A stretch of DNA of 64,000 nucleotides. It comes from Kribbella kalugense (GTDB lineage Bacteria > Actinomycetota > Actinomycetes > Propionibacteriales > Kribbellaceae). The stretch is from contig NZ_SODF01000001.1 of the NCBI RefSeq assembly GCF_004365875.1, forward strand, positions 2,790,001 through 2,854,000, written 5' to 3'. Below are positions 24,317 through 32,775 of this stretch, piece by piece. Below the pieces are notes generated by a model. It was not told the origin of the DNA and did not search any database. It worked only from the letters and a program-made list of their open reading frames with translations. The first letter of the stretch is position 1. Each line of letters starts with the position of its first letter. A program made the position numbers and the translations under genes.

Positions 24317-25528
24317 ATGAAGGTCCTGATCTCCGGCGCGAGCGTGGCCGGCCCGGTGCTGGCCCACTGGCTGCACCACCACGGTTTCGAGCCGACGATC
24401 GTCGAGCGCACACCCGAGCTGCGGCACGGACTCGGCGGCCACGCGGTCGATCTGTTCAGCTCGGCCGCCGAGGTGACCCGCCGGATGGGTTGCTGGGACG
24501 CGATCGAGGCGGCCCGCACCCGGATCGAAGCGCTGACCATCGAGCGGTTCGGCAAGCCCCCGGTCGAGGTCGACCTCAGCCGGATGTACGCCGGGATTTC
24601 GAGCAGCCACGTGGAGATCCTCCGCGGCGAACTGACGAAGATCCTGTACGACGCCACTCGCGACACGGCGGAGTACATCTTCGGCGACTCGATTGCGAGC
24701 CTGCACGACGACGGGAACGGCGTCGACGTCACATTCGACTCCGGGACGGAACGCCGGTTCGACCTGGTCATCGGCGCCGACGGACTGCACTCGAACGTCC
24801 GCCGGCTGGCCTTCGGCCCCGAGGAGCCGCTGCGTCGCTGGCTCGGCGGGTACCTCGCCGTGTTCTCGATGCCGGACATCTTCAACGTCGGCAACCACAC
24901 GCTCGCGCACATGTCGGTCGACAAGCTGGTCGGGATCTACGGCGTGCACCAGACCGGCCAGACGCGTAGCGGCTTCCTGTTCCGGACACCGCACGAGCTG
25001 CACTACGACTACCGCGACAAGGACGAGCAGAAAGCCTTGCTGGTCAAGGAGTTCAGCGACTACGGCTGGAAGGCGCCACAGCTGCTGGAGCACCTTGCGT
25101 CGGCCGAAGACTTCTACTTCGACTCGATCGCACAGATCACCTTGGACACCTGGACCAGCGGGCGAATCGGGCTGGTTGGAGATGCGGGCTACTGTCCCGG
25201 ACCAGCTGTCGGCGGCGGGACCAGTCTGGCTGTGGTGACGGCGTACATCCTCGCGGGCGAGTTAGCGAGCAATCCAGCGTCCGGCTTGAAGAACTACGAG
25301 CGGATCATCCGTCCGATGGTTGAGTCGAGTCGGCGGATCGGTCCGAAGTTGATGGGCACGATCATCCCGGGCAGCCCGCTGGCATTGCGGCTGATGCCGT
25401 TCGCCGCCGCAACGCTTCCCAAGCTGCCGACATCAGTGCAGCGCTTCATCTGGTCGCAGAACGCAGTAGGCAAGACCTTCAGCTCAGTGGATCTCCTCGA
25501 GTCCCAGGTCCGTCAGTCGATCACGTAG
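24317..25528 (+). CDS. FAD-dependent monooxygenase (PHBH/UbiH type)
   Basis: 403 residues. The FAD-binding start LISGASVAGPVLA replaces the canonical GxGxxG. GADGLHSNVRRL is the DG motif region and GLVGDAGYCPGPAVGGGTSLA is the second FAD-binding GD motif. Group A flavin monooxygenases hydroxylate aromatic or polyketide substrates, including antibiotics. A TetR gene is divergent, suggesting substrate-induced detoxification. The 3' end overlaps the convergent EboE-like gene by 45 bases. Confidence 0.9.
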   Translation: MKVLISGASVAGPVLAHWLHHHGFEPTIVERTPELRHGLGGHAVDLFSSAAEVTRRMGCWDAIEAARTRIEALTIERFGKPPVEVDLSRMYAGISSSHVEILRGELTKILYDATRDTAEYIFGDSIASLHDDGNGVDVTFDSGTERRFDLVIGADGLHSNVRRLAFGPEEPLRRWLGGYLAVFSMPDIFNVGNHTLAHMSVDKLVGIYGVHQTGQTRSGFLFRTPHELHYDYRDKDEQKALLVKEFSDYGWKAPQLLEHLASAEDFYFDSIAQITLDTWTSGRIGLVGDAGYCPGPAVGGGTSLAVVTAYILAGELASNPASGLKNYERIIRPMVESSRRIGPKLMGTIIPGSPLALRLMPFAAATLPKLPTSVQRFIWSQNAVGKTFSSVDLLESQVRQSIT

Positions 25529-26623
25529 CCACTCCAGCTCCTTGGTGAGCTGTTTGGCCAACGACTGTTGATCCGACCACGCGTAAACCTCTGACTCCAG
25601 GTGGTGCGTGAGTGGATGCCCACCACCAACCAGTCTGGTCAAACAGTCGTCCAGTACACCCGTTGTCACCCTAAGCGGAGCTGGTGGGGCAGCGTGGGCC
25701 GGCAGGTGGGCATGCATCCGCCAGGCCGCGTGACCGGACAACTCGTACGCCTGCGCGATGTCGTCCACTCCCGGCCCACCCCACTCACGCACCTGCCGCA
25801 GGTACTTCGGTGTGCCGAGCTGACCGAGCACGTAGCGACCGGCCGCATCCCACGGGTCCACCAACGTCGGCGCGACCGACAGCTGGCCCTTGACCACATC
25901 GACGCCGGCCTGCCACAGCAACTGGAACACATCGGCCGGCTCCTCGAACTGGACGGCCAGATGACACGCATCCAACCCCAGTCCGATCCGCGACGCACCG
26001 CCGTACGGACTGGAGTAGCGATTGAGCCAACCGGCTGCCTGCCCGATCATCTCGAGCACGCAGCCCGGCTCGGTCTCGACGGCGATCCGGATCTTCCGGC
26101 CGGTCCTGGCCTCGGTGCGGACCAGGTGCTGCTCGACGCGGTCGAATGCCTCCCGAGCAGCACGGTTCCGCGCCTTCGACCACGGCATCCGCCAGGCCAG
26201 CGGCACGGTCGAGATCGACCCGTACGACGCGTCAGAGGGCAGCAACTCGGCTAGTACGTCGACCAGGTCGAGGGTGTAGCGGAGCCGCTCGGGGTCGGTC
26301 CAATCAGGGCAGTACAGCTTGGTACCGACGACCTTCTCGGTGAAGTGCGAGTGCGGGGTGCCGTTCAGCGAGATGACCTCAAGTCGATTGCGCTGTAGCG
26401 CTCGGCGCAGCCTGCTGAGCGACGCCGGCGAGTTCGCCAGCCGATCAGCCAGCCGGCTCGGAAACCACAGCCCTACCCCCAGCACAGGTACGCCGAGTGC
26501 CGCGCGGACCTTCCCGGCGCAGTCGTCGAGCCCGTCGATCAGCTCATCCAGCTCCTCGGCCGGATGCACGGTCGCGCAGTACCCCACATGGACGGTCGAG
26601 CCGTCCCGATGACGGAACCTCAT
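25484..26623 (-). CDS. EboE-like TIM-barrel protein
   Basis: 379 residues. From memory of the EboE family (metabolite-traffic cluster ebo), characteristic stretches are GYCATVHPAEELDELIDGL, SLNGTPHSHF, YCPDWTDPERLRYTLDLVDVLAELLP, SISTVPLAW and ETEPGCVLE. The fold is xylose-isomerase-like. Ebo clusters help move metabolites such as scytonemin precursors to the periplasm; here no other ebo gene is present. A good ribosome site (GAGGAGAGCTG) precedes ATG 26623. Confidence 0.7.
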   Translation of the reverse strand: MRFRHRDGSTVHVGYCATVHPAEELDELIDGLDDCAGKVRAALGVPVLGVGLWFPSRLADRLANSPASLSRLRRALQRNRLEVISLNGTPHSHFTEKVVGTKLYCPDWTDPERLRYTLDLVDVLAELLPSDASYGSISTVPLAWRMPWSKARNRAAREAFDRVEQHLVRTEARTGRKIRIAVETEPGCVLEMIGQAAGWLNRYSSPYGGASRIGLGLDACHLAVQFEEPADVFQLLWQAGVDVVKGQLSVAPTLVDPWDAAGRYVLGQLGTPKYLRQVREWGGPGVDDIAQAYELSGHAAWRMHAHLPAHAAPPAPLRVTTGVLDDCLTRLVGGGHPLTHHLESEVYAWSDQQSLAKQLTKELEWLRDRLTDLGLEEIH

Positions 26624-26731: not shown

Positions 26732-28018
26732 TTAGAGGTGTTCCGGTTCGGCAACCAGATCGCGGGAGCGGTCGGCGACCGCCATCGCGGCGAGGGCTGT
26801 GGTCAGCGGGACGGCCGCGATGATGCCAAGACTGCCGACGAGGCCGCGGACGATCTCCATCGCGACCGACTCGGTCGAGAGGACCGCCCGGCCGGGAAGA
26901 CCCTGGATCGCGAAGACCAGCAGCACGGGCAGCGCGGCGCCGGCGTACGCGAGGACGAGCGTGTTGACCACCGACGCGACGTGGGTGCGGCCGATCCGGA
27001 GGCCGGCGCTGACCAGCTCTCGACGGTTGGCGGACGGGTTCGCCGCGGACAGTTCCCAAACGGCCGCCGCCTGCGTGACGGTCACATCGTCCAGCACTCC
27101 CAAAGCGCCGATCACCATTCCAGCGATCAACAAGCCGGTCAGATCGATACCAGGCACCAGCGCCTTCGCTCCTGACGCTCCGTCGGAAGCCAATCCGCTC
27201 AGCTGGCAGAACTTGGTGAAGAACCAGCCGAGCAGCACGGTCAACCCGAGCGCGAACACTGTCCCGGACAGGGCGATCGAGCTCTCGGCATTGATCCCGT
27301 GGGTGAGGAACAACGCGATCGCCATGATCACCGTGCCGCCGACGACCGCGACCAGCAGCGCGTTCTCGCCCTTCAGGATCGCCGGGAGGATGAACTGCGT
27401 CAGCATCACCGCGGTCACCGCAAGCGCGATCAGGGCCGCGAAACCCCGCCAGCGCGACAGCGCGACGACCGCAACCGCGAAGAGGCCGGCCAGCAGGAGC
27501 AGCGATCCGGTCCGGTCATGGTCGACGTAGGTGTACCGGTCGGCGAGCGTCTTCGCGTTCCCGATCACGCCGAGCATCAGCGACTGACCAACCTTGACCG
27601 GGATCGTGGTCTGGCTGGCCTTCGGGACCTGGATCGGCACCACCTTGCCCTTGTCGGCGCCGCTGGTGAGCTTGACCGTCGCCTCGTCGCACTGGGCGTC
27701 CGGATCCTTGCAGGCCTTGAGGGCCGTCACCTCACCGCGGACGGTCTGGGTCTGGTACGACGCGACCTTCACGTCACCGCCGGGCCACATCACGATCATC
27801 CCGACGACCGCGGCCAGGATCAGCGGGATCAGCACCGCCGCGACCACGATCCGGACGCGCCGGGCCACGATCGCATCGGAGTTCACCACCGACGTGTCGA
27901 CCACATGATCGCCATGGCCGTGCCCGTGGCCATGCCCGTGACCCTGGGGAATTTCCAGCTTCCGGCGCCGGTTGCCCCTGCTGTCGGCGCGCCTGCGCCC
28001 GACGTTTCGGCTGGCCAT
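26732..28018 (-). CDS. YibE/F-family membrane protein with His-rich N-terminus
   Basis: 428 residues. The cytoplasmic N-terminus carries HGHGHGHGHGDH, followed by about eight membrane helices, starting with VVAAVLIPLILAAVVGMIVMW. The core has LTHGINAESSIALSGT and GVLDDVTVTQAAAVWEL, typical of YibE/F. The biochemical role of the family is unknown. AGGGAG lies just before the ATG. The divergent neighbour is znuA, and a Zur box sits within about 55 bases, so a zinc-related role is inferred. Confidence 0.85.
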   Translation of the reverse strand: MASRNVGRRRADSRGNRRRKLEIPQGHGHGHGHGHGDHVVDTSVVNSDAIVARRVRIVVAAVLIPLILAAVVGMIVMWPGGDVKVASYQTQTVRGEVTALKACKDPDAQCDEATVKLTSGADKGKVVPIQVPKASQTTIPVKVGQSLMLGVIGNAKTLADRYTYVDHDRTGSLLLLAGLFAVAVVALSRWRGFAALIALAVTAVMLTQFILPAILKGENALLVAVVGGTVIMAIALFLTHGINAESSIALSGTVFALGLTVLLGWFFTKFCQLSGLASDGASGAKALVPGIDLTGLLIAGMVIGALGVLDDVTVTQAAAVWELSAANPSANRRELVSAGLRIGRTHVASVVNTLVLAYAGAALPVLLVFAIQGLPGRAVLSTESVAMEIVRGLVGSLGIIAAVPLTTALAAMAVADRSRDLVAEPEHL

Positions 28019-28033
28019 CGTGCACTCCCTGTT

Positions 28034-28070
28034 TTGACAATCAGTTCCAACTAAATGAAAATGATTGTCA
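28034..28070 (+). promoter_or_regulatory. Zur box and promoter of znuACB
   Basis: TGAAAATGATTGTCA (28056-28070) fits the actinobacterial Zur consensus (7-1-7 palindrome, half-sites TGAAAAT and TGACAAT). TTGACA (28034-28039) with GAAAAT (28057-28062) at 17-base spacing forms a promoter whose start would fall at about 28069-28070, the ATG itself. Zur binding would cover the -10 and the start site. A lone TGACAAT half-site at 28035-28041 may extend it. Confidence 0.75.
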
Positions 28071-29017
28071 TGAAATCTGGTCTTCGAGCTGTCCTTGCCG
28101 GCGCCACCGCGCTGGCCGCCCTCACCCTGGCTGGGTGCAGCGGCTCGACCACCAACGGTTCCAGCAACGGCAAACTCGACGTCGTCGCATCGTTCTACCC
28201 GCTCGAGTTCATCGCCCGTTCAGTGGGGGGCGATGCGGTGAACGTGACCACCCTGACCGCCCCCGGCGTCGAGCCGCACGACCTCGAGCTGACCCCCAAG
28301 CAGGTCGGCTCGATCGCGACCGCGAAGCTGGTCGTGTACGAGAAGGACCTGCAGCCGGCCGTCGACGAGGCCGTCGAGCAGAACGCGAAGGACGCCGGCT
28401 TCGACGTCGCCCCGGCCGCCCAACTGGAGGCCACCGGCGCCGACTTCGAGGAGCACGAGCCCGGCCAGGCCGCCCCCGCCGTACACAAGGACAACGCCCT
28501 CGACCCGCACTTCTGGCTCGACCCGGTGCGGTACGCCGATGTTGTCAAGGCGGTCGAGGAGAAGCTCGCCTCCGTCGACAGCGCCAACGCCGCCGGGTAC
28601 CACGAGCGCGCGACGGCCCTGCTCGGCCAGATCGGCAAGCTCGACACGGAGTACAAGACCGGGCTGGCGAGCTGCGAACTCAGGACATTTGTGACCAGTC
28701 ATGAGGCGTTCGCGTACCTGGCCAAGCGATACGGTCTGACGATGGTCGGCATCGCCGGGTTCACACCGGACGCGGAGCCGACGCCGACCCGGATCAAGGA
28801 GGTCCAGGACCTCGTGAAGGCCCAGCACGTGACGACGATCTTCTACGAGGAGCTGGTCAGTCCGAAGCTGGCCGAGACGATCGCGCACGACGTCGGCGTC
28901 AAGACCGCCGTATTGAGCCCGATCGAGGGGCTGTCGGACGCGAACTCCAAGGAAACGTATCTGACCCTCATGCGGGAGAACCTGCAGGAGCTGCAGAAAG
29001 CGAACGGCTGCGCGTGA
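28070..29017 (+). CDS. znuA: Zinc ABC importer substrate-binding lipoprotein
   Basis: 315 residues from ATG 28070 (ATGs at 28055 and 28061 also possible). The lipobox is TLAGC. Cluster A-I metal-binding signs are GVEPHDLELTP, DPHFWLDP, TSHEAFAYLAKRYGL and an acidic residue near the C-terminus. Between the first two lies a short acidic/His stretch (EEHEPGQ...VHKDN) as the zinc-capturing loop. It delivers zinc to ZnuB/ZnuC. The stop overlaps the GTG of znuC. Confidence 0.92.
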   Translation: MKSGLRAVLAGATALAALTLAGCSGSTTNGSSNGKLDVVASFYPLEFIARSVGGDAVNVTTLTAPGVEPHDLELTPKQVGSIATAKLVVYEKDLQPAVDEAVEQNAKDAGFDVAPAAQLEATGADFEEHEPGQAAPAVHKDNALDPHFWLDPVRYADVVKAVEEKLASVDSANAAGYHERATALLGQIGKLDTEYKTGLASCELRTFVTSHEAFAYLAKRYGLTMVGIAGFTPDAEPTPTRIKEVQDLVKAQHVTTIFYEELVSPKLAETIAHDVGVKTAVLSPIEGLSDANSKETYLTLMRENLQELQKANGCA

Positions 29018-29772
29018 TAGCGGAAGACTCCCCCAGGGCCGTCCAGGTCGCCGATCTTTCGGTTGACCTGGGCGGTCGACTGGTGCTCCGGGGTATCGAT
29101 CTGCGGATCCGCCAGGGCGAGGTGGTCGCCGTGCTCGGGACCAACGGCTCCGGCAAGTCCACGCTGATCAAGACCGTCGTCGGGTTGCTGCCGGCGGCCC
29201 GCGGCGAGGTCCGCTTGTTCGGAACGCCGGTCCCCCGCTTCCGCGAGTGGCGCCGGGTCGGGTACGTCCCGCAGCGCATCACCGCGGCCGGCGGCGTACC
29301 CGCGACGGTGTACGAGGTGGTCTCGTCCGGACTGCTGTCGAAGCGGCGGATGTTCAGGCCACTGGGGGCCGCGGGCAAGCAGTCGATCGAGGAGGCGCTC
29401 GAGGTCGTCGACATGGCCGACCGGCGCAAGGACGCGGTCGCTGAACTGTCCGGCGGGCAGCAGCAGCGGGTCCTGATCGCTCGGGCGCTGGTCTCCGATC
29501 CCGACCTGCTGGTCCTCGACGAGCCGACGGCCGGGGTCGACCTGGCCAGTCAGCAGATCTTCGCCGACGCGATCCGGGAGCGAGTCGCGCGCGGTACGAC
29601 GGTGGTGATGGTCAGCCACGACCTCGGCCCGATGGACGCGCTGATCGACCGCACGGTGGTGATGCGCCGCGGCCGCATCGTGTACGACGGCCCGCCGCAC
29701 TCCTCCCAGACCCACGCCCACGTCCACCACTCACACACCTCAGAAGAAGATCCGGGGTGGATGACTCCATGA
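29014..29772 (+). CDS. znuC: Zinc ABC importer ATPase
   Basis: 252 residues. Walker A GTNGSGKST, signature LSGGQQQRVLIARAL, Walker B LLVLDEPTAGVD, and H-loop VMVSHD are all present. The C-terminus ends with a His-rich tail (HAHVHHSHT), unusual for an ATPase and possibly zinc-binding. GTG at 29014 overlaps the znuA stop by 4 bases. Confidence 0.93.
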   Translation: MIAEDSPRAVQVADLSVDLGGRLVLRGIDLRIRQGEVVAVLGTNGSGKSTLIKTVVGLLPAARGEVRLFGTPVPRFREWRRVGYVPQRITAAGGVPATVYEVVSSGLLSKRRMFRPLGAAGKQSIEEALEVVDMADRRKDAVAELSGGQQQRVLIARALVSDPDLLVLDEPTAGVDLASQQIFADAIRERVARGTTVVMVSHDLGPMDALIDRTVVMRRGRIVYDGPPHSSQTHAHVHHSHTSEEDPGWMTP

Positions 29773-30773
29773 CCATGTTCCAGCTGGAGTTCATGCAGCG
29801 GGCGCTGATTGCCGGTCTGCTGACCGGGCTGTCCGCGCCGGCCATCGGGACCTATCTGGTGCAGCGGCGGTTGTCGTTGATGGGTGACGGTATTGGCCAC
29901 ATCGCGATCACCGGGGTCGCGCTTGGTCTGCTGACCGGGTGGGCTCCGGTCCTGACCGCCGTACTCGTATCTATTGCCGGTGCGACCGCGATCGAGCTGG
30001 TCCGGGCTCGCGGCAAGGCCACGGGTGACGTGGCGCTCGCTCTGATGTTTTACGGCGGTATCGCGGGCGGTGTGCTGCTCATCGGGCTGGCTGGTCAGGG
30101 TGCGGCCACTCTGAACACCTATCTGTTCGGTTCACTCACCACGGTGTCCCAGAGCGACCTCTACGTCGTTGTCGGGCTGGCTGTCACCGTTCTGGTCGTG
30201 GCGATCGGACTGGGACCGCAGCTGTTCGCGGTGTGCCAGGACGAGGAGTTCGCGCGTACGACGGGGCTCCGGGTGCAGCTGCTCAACCTGGTGATCGCTG
30301 TGATGGCCGCGGTGACTGTGACCGTGGCTATGCGGACTGTGGGTCTGCTGCTGGTGAGTGCGTTGATGGTGGTGCCCGTGGCGACGGCGCAGCAGATCAC
30401 GCGGTCGTTCCGCAGTACGTTCGTGACCGCATGTCTGATCGGTGTGGCTGCATGTCTGGCCGGCATCGTCACGTCGTACAACGCAAATGTGGCTCCGGGT
30501 GCGACCATCGTCGTGCTGGCGCTGGCCGGGTTCGTGGTGGCGGCGACGGTCGGGACGCTGCTCCGGCGGCGGTCCGGGCGGGCGCGTCCACTCGCGGACG
30601 AGGAGCCGGAGATCGGCGTACCGGCGCCGGAGCCGCATGTGGTGAGCCCTGGGCACCCGCACGCCCATGCTCCGGAGTGCGGCCACAAGAAGGTCGAACA
30701 CGGTGACCACGTCGACTACGTGCACGACGGTCATCTGCACGCTGCGCACGGCGATCACTGGGACGAGCACTGA
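29769..30773 (+). CDS. znuB: Zinc ABC importer permease with His-rich C-terminal tail
   Basis: 334 residues from ATG 29769, overlapping znuC by 4 bases. Eight or so membrane helices of the ABC-3 family, with GDGIGHIAITGVALG as the conserved first coupling segment. The last 50 residues are cytoplasmic and carry more than a dozen His in HPHAHAPECGH, HGDHVDYVHDGHLHAAHGDH. Such tails probably buffer or sense zinc. Confidence 0.93.
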   Translation: MTMFQLEFMQRALIAGLLTGLSAPAIGTYLVQRRLSLMGDGIGHIAITGVALGLLTGWAPVLTAVLVSIAGATAIELVRARGKATGDVALALMFYGGIAGGVLLIGLAGQGAATLNTYLFGSLTTVSQSDLYVVVGLAVTVLVVAIGLGPQLFAVCQDEEFARTTGLRVQLLNLVIAVMAAVTVTVAMRTVGLLLVSALMVVPVATAQQITRSFRSTFVTACLIGVAACLAGIVTSYNANVAPGATIVVLALAGFVVAATVGTLLRRRSGRARPLADEEPEIGVPAPEPHVVSPGHPHAHAPECGHKKVEHGDHVDYVHDGHLHAAHGDHWDEH

Positions 30774-30825: not shown

Positions 30826-31218
30826 GTGGCTATCGGAACACGCTCGACCCGTCAGCGCGCGGCGGTCGCGCAAGCGCTCGACCAGCTCGACGAATTCCGG
30901 ACCGCCCAGGAGATCCACCAGGACCTCCGGACCGCCGGTGAGAACGTCGGCCTGACCACTGTCTACCGGACCCTGCAGGCGCTCGCGGACTCCAGCGAAG
31001 TCGACGTACTCCGCAACGCCGACGGCGAAACGGCGTACCGGCGCTGCTCGAAGGGTCATCACCACCACCTGGTCTGCCGCAACTGCGGCCGGACCGTCGA
31101 GGTCGAAGGCCCGGCCGTGGAGCGCTGGGCCGACAAGGTCGCGGCCGAGCACGGCTACGCCGACATCAGCCACACCCTGGAGATCTTCGGCACCTGCAAG
31201 GACTGCCAGCAGGTCTGA
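30826..31218 (+). CDS. zur: Zinc uptake regulator (Fur family)
   Basis: 130 residues from GTG 30826; AGGAGG at 30816-30821 decides this start over the ATG at 30811. The winged helix includes TAQEIHQDLR and GLTTVYRTLQAL. HHHHLVCRNCG and CKDC provide the structural zinc Cys4 site and the His cluster of regulatory sites. It is the last gene of the znu cluster and should bind the Zur box at 28056-28070. Confidence 0.93.
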   Translation: MAIGTRSTRQRAAVAQALDQLDEFRTAQEIHQDLRTAGENVGLTTVYRTLQALADSSEVDVLRNADGETAYRRCSKGHHHHLVCRNCGRTVEVEGPAVERWADKVAAEHGYADISHTLEIFGTCKDCQQV

Positions 31219-31237: not shown

Positions 31238-31268
31238 TTGCCTTTGAGTGCACTCTAAGGCGTACGTT
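31238..31268 (+). promoter_or_regulatory. NmlR/AdhR-type MerR promoter-operator
   Basis: TTGCCT (31238-31243) and TACGTT (31263-31268) are separated by 19 bases, the overlong spacer of MerR-activated promoters. Within it lies CCTTTGAGTGCACTCTAAGG (31241-31260), a near-perfect palindrome matching the known MerR/NmlR operator style. The TACGTT end is 7 bases from ATG 31275, so the transcript is probably leaderless. Confidence 0.75.
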
Positions 31269-31274
31269 TTGAGC

Positions 31275-31748
31275 ATGAACACGACGGAGCTGCTCCCCGA
31301 TCCCCGGCAGGCCATCGCCGAGCTCAACCCGGAGCTGGAGATCGACCCGGAGCTGCTCTGCCTGCTCGAGCTTCCGGACGACCTGCCCGAGCGGCTGTCC
31401 ATCGCCGAGGCCGCCGAGCTCACCGGCCTCACCGCGCACACCCTGCGGTACTACGAGCGCACCGGGCTGCTCGACGTACGCCGGGACGTGTCCGGCTACC
31501 GCAGCTACGACCGGCGGGCGATGGCGCGGATCGTGTTCATCAGCAGGCTGCGTGCCTCCGGCATGCCGATCGGCACGATCAGCCACTACCTGGAGCTGGT
31601 CCTCGAGGGCGACCACACCGCACCGCAGCGGCTCGCCCTGATGCAGGAACACCGCGCCAGGATCCACCGGCAACTGCGTGATCTGCAGCTCGCCCTCGCG
31701 GTGACCGACTACAAGATCAACGTGTATCGCGGCACCGCCACTCCGTAA
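31275..31748 (+). CDS. MerR-family transcriptional regulator (NmlR/AdhR-like)
   Basis: 157 residues. The HTH ([26 protein letters not shown], about 42-67) and [21 protein letters not shown] wing are canonical MerR. A coiled coil follows. An N-terminal acidic extension of about 40 residues precedes the HTH. No metal-binding Cys cluster is seen, so an aldehyde or electrophile signal is likelier than a metal. The aldo/keto reductase is downstream. Confidence 0.9.
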
Positions 31749-31806
31749 CTTTCCTCGCTCAACCCGGGGGCCCGGGCGGAGCCATGTCAACTTCTGGGAG
31801 ATTCTG

Positions 31807-32775
31807 ATGAAACTGGGTAGCCAAGGCGCCGAGGTCAGCCGGCTCGGACTCGGCTGTATGGGAATGAGCTTCGCGTACGGCGAGGCCGATGACAACGAGT
31901 CCGTCGCGACCCTGCACCGCGCGCTCGACCTCGGCATCACGTTCCTCGACACCGCCGACATGTACGGCTTCGGCGCCAACGAGGAACTGGTCGGCCGGGC
32001 GATCGCCGACCGCCGGGACGAGGTGTTCCTGGCAACGAAGTTCGGCATCACCGGAAACCCGCTGACCAAGGCCCGTGGTGTGAACGGGTCGCCGGAGTAC
32101 GTCCGGTCCTCGATCGACGGCTCGCTGCAGCGGCTGGGGGTCGACCACGTGGACCTCTACTACCAGCACCGGATGGATCCCGACGTACCCGTCGAGGAGA
32201 CGGTCGGCGCGATGGCAGAGCTGGTCGAGGCCGGCAAGGTCCGCTATCTCGGGTTGTCCGAGGCGTCGGCGGAGACGATCCGGCGGGCGCACGTCGTACA
32301 CCCGATCACCGCGGTGCAGTCCGAGTGGTCGCTGTTCAGCCGGGACATCGAGGAGTCGGTGCTGCCGGCCTGTCGCGAGCTCGGCATCGGGATCGTGCCC
32401 TACTCGCCGCTTGGTCGCGGCATGCTGACCGGCGCTCTGCCGGACCTGTCGAGTGACGACTTCCGCCGTACCCTGCCGCGCTTCTCCGACGACAACCTCG
32501 AAGCGAACCTGGCCCTGGTCGAGGAGATCCGCTCGGTGGCAGCGCGGTACGACGCCACGCCGGGGCAGGTCGCGATCGCCTGGGTGCTTGCGCAGGGCAA
32601 CGATGTGGCGCCGATCCCGGGGACGAAGCGGCGCAAGTACCTCGAGGAGAACGCCGCGGCGCTGTCGCTTTCGCTGACCGCGGAGGATCTGGCCGGGCTC
32701 TCGAAGCTGACCCCGGCCGGGACGCGATACGCGGACATGAGCTGGGTCGCCGGGCAGTCCGCGCCGCAGGGCTGA
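31807..32775 (+). CDS. Aldo/keto reductase
   Basis: 322 residues, (beta/alpha)8 family. [12 protein letters not shown], the catalytic Asp/Tyr in FLDTADMYG, Lys in VFLATKFG and His in LYYQHRMD are present. The NADPH-binding stretch is [13 protein letters not shown]. It reduces aldehydes and ketones. MerR is immediately upstream, and a terminator follows. A paralogue is encoded at 47289-48278. Confidence 0.93.

Follow-up and report, generated by a model that had tools for sequence, protein, structure and literature searches.

A YibE/F membrane protein gene lies divergent from znuA across a conserved Zur box in Kribbella

Introduction

The closest described system to the locus studied here is the Zur regulon of actinobacteria, known from Streptomyces coelicolor, Corynebacterium glutamicum and Mycobacterium tuberculosis. 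The locus and its genome have in common with this regulon a Zur orthologue, the sequence of the Zur box, the znuACB genes and a boxed COG0523-type protein, and proteins of the COG0523/CobW class are among those named in published Zur regulons, according to the available part of one reconstruction (PMC2823685). The difference is that YibE/F is not named in the reconstructed regulon as far as that part of the source goes (PMC2823685). A second point of comparison is ZitB, a zinc exporter activated by Zur. It would resemble YibE/F in being under Zur in an actinobacterium, but it belongs to another protein family and the position of its box relative to the promoter is different.

The YibE/F family (PF07907) is listed as TC 9.B.141 in the accessible portion of PMC3924187. 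In Staphylococcus aureus, two YibE/F-like genes are among those whose loss reduces fitness in human blood, as stated in the part of the study at hand (PMC13227979). No report of a zinc role for YibE or of its relation to RND proteins was found in the open-licence literature searched. The Kribbella copy is like other members of the family in its full-length domain match (233 bits) and in a His-rich tail that is typical of the actinobacterial members tested; it differs in its fixed place next to znuACB and a Zur box, and the family is without an assigned function. For such a widespread family, a copy controlled by Zur in a soil bacterium would offer a clean genetic handle through zinc limitation combined with a zur mutant.

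Results

The yibE and znuA region of K. kalugense

The window is the whole stretch of DNA analysed, 64,000 nucleotides from Kribbella kalugense (contig NZ_SODF01000001.1, positions 2,790,001 to 2,854,000). A sequence-only reading of it had described a YibE/F protein carrying HGHGHGHGHGDH, encoded divergently from znuA with a Zur box between the two genes, and the analysis bore this description out (Table 1). The yibE product matched PF07907 over the full-length domain, scoring 232.8 bits where the cut-off is 27.2, and a genome-wide search found it to be the only YibE_F copy in the 8.3-Mb genome. Among named organisms, its closest YibE relatives come from Kribbella. On the other side of the box, znuA (PF01297), znuC, znuB (PF00950) and a gene for a FUR protein follow in this order, divergent from yibE. 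The best solved relatives of the FUR protein are S. coelicolor Zur (3mwm, E 9e-57; 7vo0) and M. tuberculosis FurB/Zur (2o03), and this closeness to ScZur 3mwm and MtFurB among solved structures marks it as the Zur orthologue of the genome. There are three FUR genes and two ZnuA-family genes in the genome; the ORF adjoining one of the other FUR genes, recognised by eye, is presumably a KatG-like catalase-peroxidase.

Table 1 Features of the yibE and znuA region, with positions in the window.
Feature	Positions	Strand	Description or basis
yibE/F gene	26732-28018	minus	428 aa membrane protein, PF07907 YibE_F
Half-RND-like transmembrane core, residues 217-417	26768-27370	minus	VIA-align to AcrB 335-500 (predicted model)
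Asp310-Asp311 of LGVLDDVTVTQ motif	27086-27091	minus	unchanged across the 59 A2 rows
Predicted OB-like beta domain, residues 92-167	27518-27745	minus	within the loop behind TM1; all 59 rows keep Cys103 and Cys110
Predicted first transmembrane helix, residues 53-76	27791-27862	minus	AlphaFold model
His-rich tail HGHGHGHGHGDH, residues 27-38	27905-27940	minus	disordered, before first TM helix; translation
yibE ribosome-binding site AGGGAG	28025-28030	minus	sequence; conserved in aligned regions
znuA promoter TTGACA-17-GAAAAT	28034-28062	plus	conserved in 27 aligned regions; overlapped by box
Possible weak second Zur site TGACAATCAGTTCCA	28035-28049	none	21 bp from first; overlaps znuA -35
Candidate yibE -10 TTTAGT, mostly TTTAAT in relatives	28050-28055	minus	inferred from alignment; touches box
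Zur box TGAAAATGATTGTCA (7-1-7 palindrome)	28056-28070	none	motif scans, conservation
znuA, zinc-binding lipoprotein	28070-29017	plus	PF01297, 263.4 bits; start moved from 28055
znuC ATPase, His-rich C-terminus	29014-29772	plus	translation, profile search
znuB permease, His-rich C-terminus	29757-30773	plus	PF00950, translation
zur, FUR-family zinc regulator	30826-31218	plus	PF01475; start inferred from GGAGG just upstream

The Zur box and the two promoters

With up to 3 mismatches, TGAAAATGATTNTCA gave three strand-matches in the window against 0.41 expected, and two of the three were the site at 28056-28070. At no more than one mismatch to an AT-rich perfect palindrome there were two sites in the 8.3 Mb, one being this box and the other preceding a CobW_C (COG0523-type) protein. 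The Zur motif from ChIP-chip of S. coelicolor is given as tGaNNatSatNNtCa in the available part of PMC5472717; the box agrees with it at every position with no mismatch, and six places in the genome do so. Among 27 aligned orthologous intergenic regions of the genus, the box was identical in 26 and carried one change in the other. Sites with two mismatches were also noted in the genome. One of them, C2:189900, precedes a gene for a sugar-type binding protein and was judged doubtful. Another, C3:921527-921541 (L090:9528-9542), stands where an SBP_bac_5/ABC permease operon begins; this operon may encode an importer of a metallophore or of nickel/zinc under Zur control.

The ATG right after the box and the AGGGAG of yibE are kept in the 27 aligned regions as well. 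The conserved znuA promoter implies that transcription starts near 28070. On this basis znuA probably has no leader and begins with the ATG at 28070, and the listed start at 28055, which precedes the box, is probably wrong. A leaderless transcript has a precedent in C. glutamicum cg2911, and one Zur motif in that organism serves divergent units 29 bp apart, both according to the accessible part of PMC2823685. On the yibE side, a good -35 element is absent, and the start codon is separated from the edge of the box by 37 nt that include the ribosome-binding site. With so little space between the two, Zur on the box should block yibE too, and the arrangement makes it very likely that yibE is co-repressed with znuA by Zur. 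The second Zur site at TGACAATCAGTTCCA is a weak candidate at most, because it overlaps the -35 element and because 11 of 30 scanned loci have it with up to 3 mismatches, which is weak conservation.

Conservation of the divergent pair within Kribbella

YibE_F was present in all 38 Kribbella genomes searched. In each of the 38, yibE was divergent from znuA with the box between them, and the box was identical in 37 and had a single change in one. Beyond yibE comes eboE, at a distance of 0.1 to about 6 kb where the gene was found, and this variation indicates that the tight pair is yibE and znuA. A record named Streptomyces sp. SID13031 (L101/L083) shows the gene arrangement of Kribbella and groups within the Kribbella clade on the YibE tree; it is probably misnamed.

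A second YibE/F without the box or znu neighbours was found in five Kribbella genomes (L077-L081), and one further genome has a second YibE/F as a fragment (L310). In the unlinked paralogue (L077-L081, L103), the His tail is much shorter and the box is absent.

The His-rich tail is a family trait

The sequence-only reading had relied on the His-rich tail as its main evidence from the protein. In the AlphaFold model, pLDDT is below 50 over residues 27-49, and the HGHGHGHGHGDH tail follows an Arg-rich start; this Arg-rich flank would place the tail on the cytosolic side. At least three His residues were present in the 55 residues before TM1 in 13/13 linked Kribbella copies, none of 4 unlinked Kribbella copies (each with an HxH), 16/17 other members of the order, 69/69 loci from the similarity search and 29/47 from the phylum sample. 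These counts covered 13/13, 4/6, 17/25, 69/73 and 47/60 loci, respectively, and the rest were without an anchor motif or a usable stretch. When a stretch of equal length after TM1 was scored in the same five groups, the numbers with at least three His were 0, 0, 1, 1 and 1. The His tail is a habit of the YibE/F family that is long in the linked copy, and alone it is no sign of zinc control. The HGHGHGHGHGDH tail was rejected as specific evidence for zinc in the Kribbella copy, since such a tail is typical of actinobacterial YibE/F whether zinc genes are near or not.

Zinc-gene linkage outside Kribbella

YibE/F was carried by 98/117 genomes of the order and by 60/197 of the phylum sample. The 158 non-Kribbella loci compared consist of 25 from the order, 73 from a similarity search and 60 from the phylum sample. 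The 25 order loci, from 24 genomes outside the genus, were hand-picked from the matches with one or a few per genus. None of them had zur, znuA or znuB within about 9 kb or a box, and no box was found in a partly different set of short order loci either. Zinc-gene neighbours of yibE were found at 8/158 loci, on several branches of the YibE tree. Seven of them, found by similarity, have FUR, ZnuA or ZnuB above 60 bits near yibE (L104, L119, L120, L130, L157, L218 and L228), with the nearest zinc gene at most 1 kb from yibE in all seven; the other non-Kribbella loci gave no first zinc-gene match within 7.5 kb at the 60-bit threshold. By an estimate from the available space, about 21% of first matches would fall within 1.5 kb if they were placed uniformly. 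The chance of seven close first matches in seven is then about 2 in 100,000, or about 9 in 100,000 if the sisters L119 and L130 count once. The eighth locus, L261, has a ZnuA-family gene just after yibE (258 bits by Pfam); it scored 49 bits by similarity, below the threshold, and was added after the Pfam search.

The linked loci vary in their composition. L104 (Streptomyces sp. WMMB 322) spans 13 kb with FUR, an ABC binding protein, an ORF preceded by a box-like site, CobW, yibE, znuBCA and a second yibE; we take this ORF, read by eye, to be a form of ribosomal protein L33. In L157 (Kitasatospora), znuA, znuC, znuB, FUR and yibE come in this order, and a boxed SBP_bac_5 ABC operon comes next. 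In L228, FUR and yibE run divergently from znuACB, and the interval between the two units contains a site that departs from the motif at one position. In L218, genes for FUR and for a zinc transporter of the ZIP type are near yibE, and zur is linked to yibE in a Rubrobacter MAG. In L119 and L130, yibE is in a run of genes toward glyS that resembles the glyS-zur neighbourhood of the window. The FUR protein at each linked locus is taken as Zur from its neighbours; the zinc link of L120 comes from the FUR family by itself, and that of L218 from FUR together with ZIP. On a YibE tree of 168 rows, the zinc label, which excluded L218 and L261, needs 7 changes, of which at least 6 are forced by well-supported branches; zinc linkage thus arose several times.

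These data bear on one alternative, namely that yibE is beside znuA by history, with a constitutive promoter of its own and a job unrelated to zinc, and that the box serves znuA alone. YibE/F is far from zinc genes at 150/158 loci, which shows that zinc is not the sole setting of the family, and the shared geography of the run toward glyS could explain part of the linkage. However, the short interval between the box and the yibE start leaves no space for a box-free promoter, the divergent pair is intact in every Kribbella genome searched although eboE is often kilobases away, and the linkage recurs with varied partners (the Rubrobacter MAG, L228, L104 and L218). We consider a mere neighbour relationship unlikely.

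A predicted half-RND-like core

The sequence search found no solved structure of YibE. An AlphaFold model was made from 59 sequences (mean pLDDT 84.3, pTM 0.76). The alignments A2 and A3 hold these 59 rows, the window yibE plus 58 of 80 loci from the similarity search; L159 and L162 (each with a stop codon in the range) and L167 were omitted, as were others, mostly Streptomyces, for size. PF07907 was matched by 59/59 rows of A2, and KOW and other weak Pfam matches to A2 members were taken as chance.

In the prediction, a disordered tail is followed by TM1 (53-76), then by a beta domain (92-167) that is similar to OB folds, IF1 among them (Z up to 8.2), and finally by a helical core (170-422). 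Residues 217-417 aligned with AcrB 335-500 at Z 10.2 and rmsd 3.5 over 165 residues, and the ten best rows were all RND pumps. Folded alone, the core had a pLDDT of 84.7 and matched Patched, CmeB, AcrB, MmpL5, MmpL3, MtrD, NPC1-type proteins, Dispatched, CusA and the sterol-sensing domain of HMGCR with Z of 8.7-11.7; all 50 matches listed belong to the RND/SSD superfamily. As helical bundles can reach Z 13 in VIA-align without kinship, the weight of this comparison rests on the uniform list and not on Z. Foldseek returned nothing under E 0.001 for the whole model or for the core alone. Profile comparison of YibE with SecDF, MMPL and AcrB gave E of 0.03-0.65 with a shallow profile (Neff 2.6-3.1), whereas three positive controls succeeded at 1e-10 to 3e-5 (AcrB-MMPL 1e-10, AcrB-SecDF 2e-8).

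In the predicted model, Asp310 and Asp311 fall in the helix matching RND TM4, near the proton-relay acids. Three of the 10 diverse rows of alignment A1 have Asn in place of Asp310, and Asp311 is invariant there. The best ungapped register with AcrB over residues 126-165 of the separately folded core puts D310 on D407 by a slim margin of 4.8 vs 4.3, and comparisons with SecDF and MMPL do not repeat this register. Through the Asp pair, the predicted RND-like fold of YibE/F offers a specific mechanistic test.

The predicted protein is similar to the RND superfamily (AcrB, CusA, MmpL3/5, Patched, NPC1) in a core of about 160 residues, an outside domain after TM1 and a (D/N)D pair. It differs from the RND layout, in which 12 TM helices form two repeats and two large loops lie outside: its 428 residues form one unit, one small OB-like domain replaces the porter domains, and the profile comparison detected no sequence kinship. 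SecD and SecF each correspond to one RND-like half, with an outside domain and a motif of the ND/DD type. YibE/F is predicted to be alike in all three respects, but its profile match to them is not significant (E 0.23-0.34) and no link to sec genes was seen. On the strength of the model, whether YibE/F is a half-RND-like transporter is evenly balanced.

Discussion

We propose that zinc-loaded Zur would bind the one box that overlaps both the promoter of leaderless znuA and that of yibE, and would shut both. As zinc falls, ZnuABC and YibE/F would be made together. YibE/F may then consist of a disordered cytosolic His tail, one TM helix, an outside OB-like domain and a half-RND-like core, as modelled. 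Such a small transporter, coupled to protons, could carry zinc, or a ligand that binds zinc, through the membrane under zinc scarcity, and the His tail might buffer the metal or hand it over. We moderately favor the view that YibE/F is a Zur-repressed, half-RND-like and presumably proton-coupled transporter that acts in zinc scarcity, with substrate and direction being conjectural parts of it. A direct role of YibE/F in acquiring or retaining zinc is possible, if on the doubtful side. More tentative still is the broader proposal that YibE/F proteins are unrecognised compact transporters of the RND fold, single-unit and proton-coupled, with an OB domain for the porter domain and a metal-handling cytosolic His tail, which would have come under Zur independently in several lineages of actinobacteria, to serve next to ZnuABC as a second system for zinc acquisition.

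The sequence-only reading had suggested that YibE/F handles zinc, by efflux or by storage with ZnuB. The link to zinc stood, given the conservation of the pair, the recurrent linkage and the fit of the box to the Zur ChIP motif; the named mechanisms were not supported. Nothing ties YibE/F physically to ZnuB in a store. As to efflux, the position of the box allows a block and not a zitB-like activation, and yibE is expected to be expressed when zinc is scarce, which argues against it.

Instead of the ion, YibE/F could export or recycle a metallophore made in zinc starvation. Large molecules are exported by RND-fold proteins, in L157 a Zur-boxed ABC operon of the SBP_bac_5 type comes directly after yibE, and the K. 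kalugense genome has such a boxed operon elsewhere. Nonetheless, biosynthesis genes were not seen beside yibE within the window and a porter domain is much larger than the OB domain, and we judge this reading to be rather improbable. An exporter activated by zinc-bound Zur, in analogy to S. coelicolor ZitB, is highly improbable: an actinobacterial Zur can activate an exporter and export is usual for RND-type folds, but the zitB box lies 8 nt upstream of its -35 element in the available part of the account (PMC5472717), the same spacing here would place the start about 43 nt past the box edge and inside the yibE coding region, which rejects Zur-activated efflux on geometry, and one box that represses znuA yet activates an exporter is unlikely in this arrangement.

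Some features of the surrounding genes were also recorded. ZnuC (29700-29772) and ZnuB (30640-30773) both end in His-rich stretches, HAHVHHSH and HGDHVDYVHDGHLHAAHGDHWDEH, respectively; His tails are found on three membrane-side proteins of the cluster, YibE/F, ZnuC and ZnuB. On the 3' side of zur (31248-32775) are genes for a MerR-type regulator (NmlR-like, below the cut-off) and an aldo/keto reductase, which are kept in several relatives. Directly 3' of yibE on the same strand is a gene for an EboE-like TIM-barrel protein (25484-26623; NF035939, 310 bits), and in relatives eboE is usually near yibE, if not always adjacent.
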